Below the pieces are notes generated by a model. The model had not been told where the DNA came from, made no database searches, and worked only from the letters and a program-made list of their open reading frames with translations. DNA of 63,950 nucleotides from a virus: positions 1 through 63,950 of the IMG/VR virus record IMGVR_UViG_3300027899_000982. One strand, 5' to 3'. Each line of letters starts with the position of its first letter. Position 1 is the stretch's first letter. This document shows positions 37,729 to 37,856 of this stretch, piece by piece. A program made the translations under genes and the position numbers.

Positions 37729-37856
37729 AAAGGAGAGAGAAAACCTAATTGAGTTGAGGGCTGGATGCCCTTTGCCATACCAACTTGGCGACAATCGCTT
37801 GTGCGATCAATTGGAGTTGAACCAATGAAGTAACTCAATTATTACTACTCTCCTTT
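37729..37856 (-). ncRNA. Y RNA-like element 3 with permuted tRNA-like domain (YrlA type)
   Basis: A 128-nt - strand element closed by AAAGGAGAG with CTCTCCTTT. The core AGTAA, eight bases ending GAG, TTACTTCAT and the 3' segment GGTTTTCTC match the other elements. Inside, 37756-37826, the tRNA arms appear in permuted order 5' to 3': T-arm (ATTGG-TTCAACT-CCAAT), 3' acceptor strand TGATCGC, loop ACAA, 5' acceptor strand GCGATTG, D-arm (GCCA-AGTTGGTA-TGGC), anticodon-like arm. Bacterial YrlA Y RNAs are known to carry a tRNA-like module. Confidence 0.75.

Follow-up and report, generated by a model that had tools for sequence, protein, structure and literature searches.

The Y RNA cluster and its Ro60 gene

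The window, that is, the whole 63,950-base virus record analyzed here, carries on its minus strand a cluster that reads, in the direction of transcription, as a promoter-like site, Y RNA element 4 (Y4), Y3, a tRNA-Pro(TGG) gene, Y2, a Tad2-like open reading frame, Y1 and a Ro60/TROVE gene (Table 1). The Ro60 protein matches the RNA-binding protein family PHROG 850 (1.8e-44) as well as PDB Ro60/TROVE chains, and its gene lies downstream of all four Y elements on the same strand. The elements have in common the sequence G[AG]GTTACTTCA, located within an imperfect stem, which is also found in relatives beside Ro60 genes. Y3 displays features by which a Y RNA is recognized: an adjoining Ro60/TROVE gene, a long stem formed by its paired 5’ and 3’ ends, and the Ro60-stem motif. 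Y4 is only partly tRNA-like; a reading as a full tRNA in canonical order, for which a tRNA-Sec model gives 26.8 bits, was rejected because the independent model R2 yields 16.2 bits (E 0.0045) and leaves the D-stem unsupported. Since the tRNA-Pro gene begins so close to the 3’ end of Y3, RNase P cleavage at this tRNA could define that end. The region around the Y cluster is no richer in promoter-like sites than its shuffles.

The Tad2-like (Thoeris anti-defence 2) reading frame between Y1 and Y2 occupies positions 37277–37546 (minus strand; Pfam PF11195, 7e-8). Around Y3 lies a same-strand replication and recombination module with SbcC- and SbcD-like proteins, RecA, a gp32-like protein, a clamp loader, and a protein (42694–45240, minus strand) that joins a uracil-DNA glycosylase-superfamily domain to a family A DNA polymerase with 3’–5’ exonuclease. 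Farther away on the minus strand are a DUF2201 metallopeptidase-like and VWA-like protein (58106–59320), which is a second VWA-type protein besides Ro60, and a type-P5 twister ribozyme (61877–61936) scoring 49.5 bits, above its gathering score.

Table 1. Features of the Y RNA cluster in window coordinates, and third-layout sites by locus and position
Feature	Position	Strand	Basis or remark
Ro60/TROVE protein, 479 aa, vWA domain, DESGSM motif	35728..37167	-	Pfam TROVE 8.9e-24, PHROG 850, PDB chains
Y element 1, without tRNA-like domain	37195..37276	-	motif and fold
Y element 2, without tRNA-like domain	37565..37645	-	motif and fold
tRNA-Pro(TGG), ordinary, encoded CCA	37648..37724	-	starts ~5 nt past Y3 3’ end
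Y3, whole predicted RNA	37729..37859	-	fold z -6.5, Ro60-stem pair probabilities 0.82-1.0
Y3 outer stem	37856-37848/37737-37729	-	part of MFE fold
Y3 Ro60-type stem	37840-37832/37755-37747	-	pair probabilities 0.82-1.0; tRNA-like domain between strands
Y3 Y-RNA core motif GAGTTACTTC	37827..37836	-	sequence and motif counts in Ro60 loci
Y3 T-arm, ATTGG/CCAAT, 5 bp, loop TTCAACT	37810..37826	-	sequence, MFE fold, permuted-tRNA model
Y3 closed acceptor TGATCGC-ACAA-GCGATTG, 3’ strand first, 7 pairs (two G-U)	37792..37809	-	sequence, fold, model
Y3 bases 8-9, TC	37791-37790	-	sequence, fold, model
Y3 D-arm GCCA-AGTTGGTA-TGGC, GG in loop	37789-37774	-	sequence, fold, model
Y3 anticodon-like hairpin AGGGC-ATCCA-GCCCT, separate arm	37757..37771	-	sequence, MFE fold, pair probabilities
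Y element 4, Ro60-type stem and three hairpins, one T-arm (GTGGG TCCGAAT CCCAC)	37868..37978	-	fold z -4.4
Sigma-70-like promoter TTGTCC-18-TATAAT, just upstream of Y4	37987..38016	-	pattern only
Third-layout sites	L060 6103, L112 1254, L163 2680, L127 1817, L030 3871		
Third-layout sites, continued	L075 5641, L087 145, L093 599, L096 1697, L114 610		

The permuted tRNA-like domain of Y3

The whole of Y3 folds with a minimum free energy (MFE) of -47.4 kcal/mol, and none of 200 dinucleotide shuffles folds as well. The MFE structure includes the outer stem, the Ro60-type stem, the T-arm, the closed acceptor, the D-arm and the anticodon-like hairpin. A preliminary description had read the minus strand as a T-arm, acceptor, ACAA loop, bases 8-9, D-arm and anticodon-like arm in that order, and every sequence detail of this reading matches across 37826–37757. 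Its view of the element as a tRNA cut on the variable/anticodon side and sealed at the acceptor holds as well, as a permuted body without free ends is supported. Across the predicted ensemble, support is strong for the Ro60 stem, the T-stem, the anticodon-like stem and the inner part of the acceptor. Pair probabilities fall to ~0.39 in the D-stem, to 0.1 in the outermost acceptor pair and to 0.39 in the other outer one.

Evidence for the permuted order also comes from a covariance model, R1, built from 40 real phage tRNAs only (ARAGORN calls in phage loci) and rearranged by script so that the T-arm comes first, then the 3’ acceptor, a random 4-nt loop, the 5’ acceptor, bases 8-9 and the D-arm. 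Scanned over both strands of the window with filters off, R1 places the Y3 core at exactly 37826–37774 with 48.7 bits (E = 4.5e-13). The next-best matches are the neighboring tRNA-Pro and its flank, at 13.5 and 13.4 bits, and the best outside the RNA cluster is a T-arm fragment at 10.3 bits. Thus, the permuted core of Y3 is real and lies far above chance.

Circularly permuted tRNA genes are found in red algae and archaea, where they are processed to charged tRNAs. Y3 resembles them in its permuted order, with the 3’ half ahead of the 5’ half; when the native Y3 sequence alone is re-ordered as a tRNA with an added variable loop, ARAGORN calls tRNA-Gly (tcc), and some relatives of Y3 keep GCCA in the acceptor loop. 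It is nevertheless very improbable that Y3 is a gene of this kind, giving rise to a working tRNA as happens in certain algae and archaea. The domain is embedded in a Ro60-type stem with Y RNAs on its flanks, its acceptor is shut by a short loop, the closing loops are often tetraloops (ACAA, GCAA, GAAA), and an ordinary tRNA-Pro adjoins Y3. Furthermore, the anticodon-like loop, ATCCA, has five nucleotides, and an alternative seven-nucleotide reading, CATCCAG, puts A at position 33. Y3 therefore lacks a functional 7-nt anticodon loop with U33, and its processing to a normal tRNA is unlikely.

Relatives of Y3 and the break points of the tRNA body

Y RNAs whose tRNA-like domain is permuted are a kind already known from bacteria and phages. 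In bacterial YrlA (Rfam RF02553; Salmonella structure PDB 6CU1), the Rfam consensus places a T-arm, a closed acceptor, UA and a D-arm on a Ro60 stem. This is the order of Y3, so the kinship with the YrlA tRNA-like module proposed in the preliminary description stands; both RNAs also lie beside Ro60 and mimic the tRNA elbow. The two differ in where the tRNA is opened. RF02553 is opened in the anticodon loop, and its anticodon stem forms the junction to the Ro60 stem. In Y3, the T-arm comes right after the motif and a separate hairpin (37771–37757) forms the anticodon-like arm, so that the opening lies in the variable region. The RF02553 model fails to detect Y3 at its gathering score and also at E values up to 10 over 951 nt, where its sole match is the D-arm of tRNA-Pro. 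Because both the anticodon-stem junction and the score fail, Y3 is not assigned to the RF02553 model.

Ro60 relatives place Y3 among many similar RNAs. A single-protein search of viral contigs found none, and an alignment search recovered 77 loci; for the genome scan, the diverse alignment A1 was too variable and alignment A4 was used. Full-length relatives occur in many phages and also in bacterial genomes. Across 83 Ro60 loci, the strand that encodes Ro60 carries 53 Y motifs and the opposite strand 6. R1 detects dozens of permuted domains in these loci; with matches bridging two tandem tRNAs set aside, most start 26–33 nt past the motif. R1 also finds such domains in bacterial Ro60 loci. By one script, 20 phage and 29 bacterial Ro60 loci hold a permuted domain behind the motif. 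A script requiring motif, T-arm, acceptor hairpin and D-arm retrieves 24 long-linker and 2 short-linker domains from the phage loci and 37 long-linker domains from the bacterial loci, with none on reverse strands or shuffles. In the long-linker class, the bases ahead of the T-arm are the 3’ half of the anticodon stem and the variable loop, the layout of the Rfam YrlA consensus with its tRNA opened in the anticodon loop.

An annotated tRNA-Tyr(gta) of a csAss-like phage (L003, 3658–3738; GenBank annotation) overlaps a Y-RNA motif beside Ro60, and the annotated gene may encode a Y RNA instead. In a 634-kb phage (L001), whose Ro60 is the closest among named phage records and is 53% identical to the window Ro60 in alignment, ~300 nt follow a second Y-like motif upstream of Ro60 (5620–5960) and may represent a Y RNA of exceptional length.

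No exact pieces of Y3 were found in other viral contigs, and no close relative of its exact sequence emerged; the conservation of Y3 therefore rests on its sub-form, the variable-region break. A pattern scan of viral DNA for the motif followed within 2–12 nt by a T-arm core gave at least 119 stretches. Among the matches listed, 108 distinct sites include at least 39 RNAs beyond Y3 with acceptor and D-arm in order, and of the 38 listed sub-form members whose loci came from pattern scans, 30 have a Ro60 gene within their stretch, on the same strand in all 30. A downstream hairpin of at least 5 bp with a 7-nt loop follows in 25 of 40 (62.5%; the 39 listed and Y3), compared with 3.9% in shuffled downstream sequence, and 23 of these 25 have T at position 33.

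Alignment A6, made on sequence alone with 24 sequences of the sub-form, reveals strong covariation: pairing holds in 91.2% of cells, both partners change in 18 of 21 pairs, and the covariation score reaches 0.778 versus 0.190 when shuffled (0/500) and 0.06–0.16 for slid partners. All four arms covary, the anticodon-like helix included, although the anticodon-like stem of Y3 is shifted by one column, so that this fourth helix fits the relatives better than it fits Y3. Phage tRNA clusters can hold degraded tRNAs, and the D-stem of Y3 is only moderately stable in silico, as might be seen in tRNA debris or a functionless chance fold. This is the least probable account of Y3 given the R1 E value, the fold z-score, the covariation of the sub-form and the constant position of the domain between motif and closing stem. 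The permuted fold of Y3 is a member of a widespread family, not a single oddity, and its variable-region break marks a sub-form that is likewise widespread and goes unrecognized by the public RNA-family model.

One such relative is a phage Y RNA represented in IMG/VR 3300037420_001924 and 3300038443_001820. It has the same sub-form and a five-way layout in its MFE fold, and its Ro60 is 53% identical to that of the window; it differs from Y3 in a linker ~5 nt longer and in a weak RF02553 match (33 bits). The acceptor-closing loops of five others (L168, L186, L206, L234 and L266) keep GCCA, like a tRNA 3’ end, which hints at an origin of the permuted domain in tandem tRNA genes.

A third layout is present in several Ro60 loci, from which alone its sites were taken. 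Here, the motif is followed by bases 8-9, a D-arm, a full anticodon arm and a T-arm, without a matching 5’ acceptor, and in some copies a closed hairpin follows the T-arm. Such D-arm–anticodon-arm–T-arm units lack a pairing acceptor in 11 of 14 cases right after a motif-like sequence, versus 12 of 240 units lacking the motif. Three motif-adjacent units do have an acceptor, and two of these (L151 and L153) match a degenerate motif only and resemble ordinary tRNAs. The pattern GTTACTTCGTARCTCA was dropped as a marker of this layout because a Ro60 gene is present in only 5 of the 33 newly gained loci and ordinary tRNAs can match it.

The Ro60 stem and the elbow of T-arm and D-arm are constant across the layouts. 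There is about an even chance that the same tRNA body has been placed on the Ro60 stem at three break points, with only the elbow constant: the anticodon loop (YrlA), the variable region (Y3, with four arms kept) and the acceptor/8-9 region (the third layout), the last two being undescribed as families as judged against Rfam and reviews, although supplements of the primary YrlA papers may show such a layout.

Proposed function of Y3

The fold on a Ro60-type stem with GAGTTACTTC, together with its place among four Y elements upstream of Ro60, marks Y3 as a probable phage Y RNA bearing a YrlA-like domain that mimics tRNA. This domain has the form of a whole tRNA body opened in the variable region, shut at the acceptor and set atop a Ro60-type stem. 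In the reading we favor and consider probable, Y3 is a phage Ro60-type Y RNA whose permuted-tRNA effector domain tethers Ro60, through its elbow, to a host tRNA-binding factor. The phage Ro60 would grip the GRTTACTTC stem, and the elbow formed by T-loop and D-loop would serve as the docking surface for a host protein that recognizes tRNA, most likely PNPase. Y3, phage Ro60 and host PNPase would then make up a phage counterpart of the Ro60-Y RNA-PNPase machine, while Y1 and Y2, without the domain, would occupy Ro60 without tethering. No PNPase, RtcB or RNA ligase was seen among the window proteins scanned, so the partner must be assumed to come from the host.

In tmRNA, the acceptor end is free and can be charged, and an mRNA part is present. 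Y3 resembles it in that a larger RNA mimics tRNA (see also PMC8394870), but has neither a chargeable end nor an mRNA part. With no free acceptor end, Y3 should be neither charged nor admitted to translation.

Published work on Y RNAs offers precedents. According to one review, YrlA is modified by DusA and TruB, with dihydrouridine and pseudouridine in its D- and T-loops, and in the model of the Ro60-Y RNA-PNPase complex (RYPER) the stem carries Ro60 and the tRNA-like domain contacts PNPase (PMC8394870). The Deinococcus complex is described as promoting the decay of structured RNA (PMC8058203). On the basis of these reviews, the most likely function of Y3 is taken to be linking Ro60 to a nuclease of the host that binds tRNA. 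In addition, a Listeria phage with a Ro60 homolog produces abundant RNAs that its authors regard as possible Y RNAs (PMC12282133). Host enzymes of the TruB and Dus types may likewise modify the loops of Y3; the earlier suggestion that Y3 may recruit tRNA-modifying enzymes fits this published work, and the suggestion that it may feed substrates to a nuclease resembles the RYPER model.

The main rival to tethering is that Y3 acts as a decoy: a Ro60-bound tRNA mimic would be a competing target for enzymes that cut tRNAs (anticodon nucleases), whether anti-phage or host ones, and would shield tRNAs during infection, with no PNPase tethering. YrlA, itself reported to be uncut, has been proposed as a competitive inhibitor of a RecA-dependent nuclease (PMC7790460), a Tad2-like anti-defence protein is encoded between the Y RNAs, and the listed sub-form RNAs retain a covarying anticodon-like arm, mostly with a 7-nt loop and T33. 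Y3 itself has a loop of 5 nt or A at position 33, and the common YrlA class has no free anticodon loop yet is conserved. We consider a decoy role unlikely. For tethering, the elbow is the likely selected feature, by which Ro60 would be joined to PNPase or another host factor that binds tRNA.

The differing break points around the same elbow resemble mutagenesis carried out by nature, and suggest that the mimicked part is the elbow of T-loop and D-loop, neither the ends nor the anticodon. A sizeable class in phages escapes the present Rfam model, and the differing break points make the targets of bacterial and phage Y RNAs directly testable.
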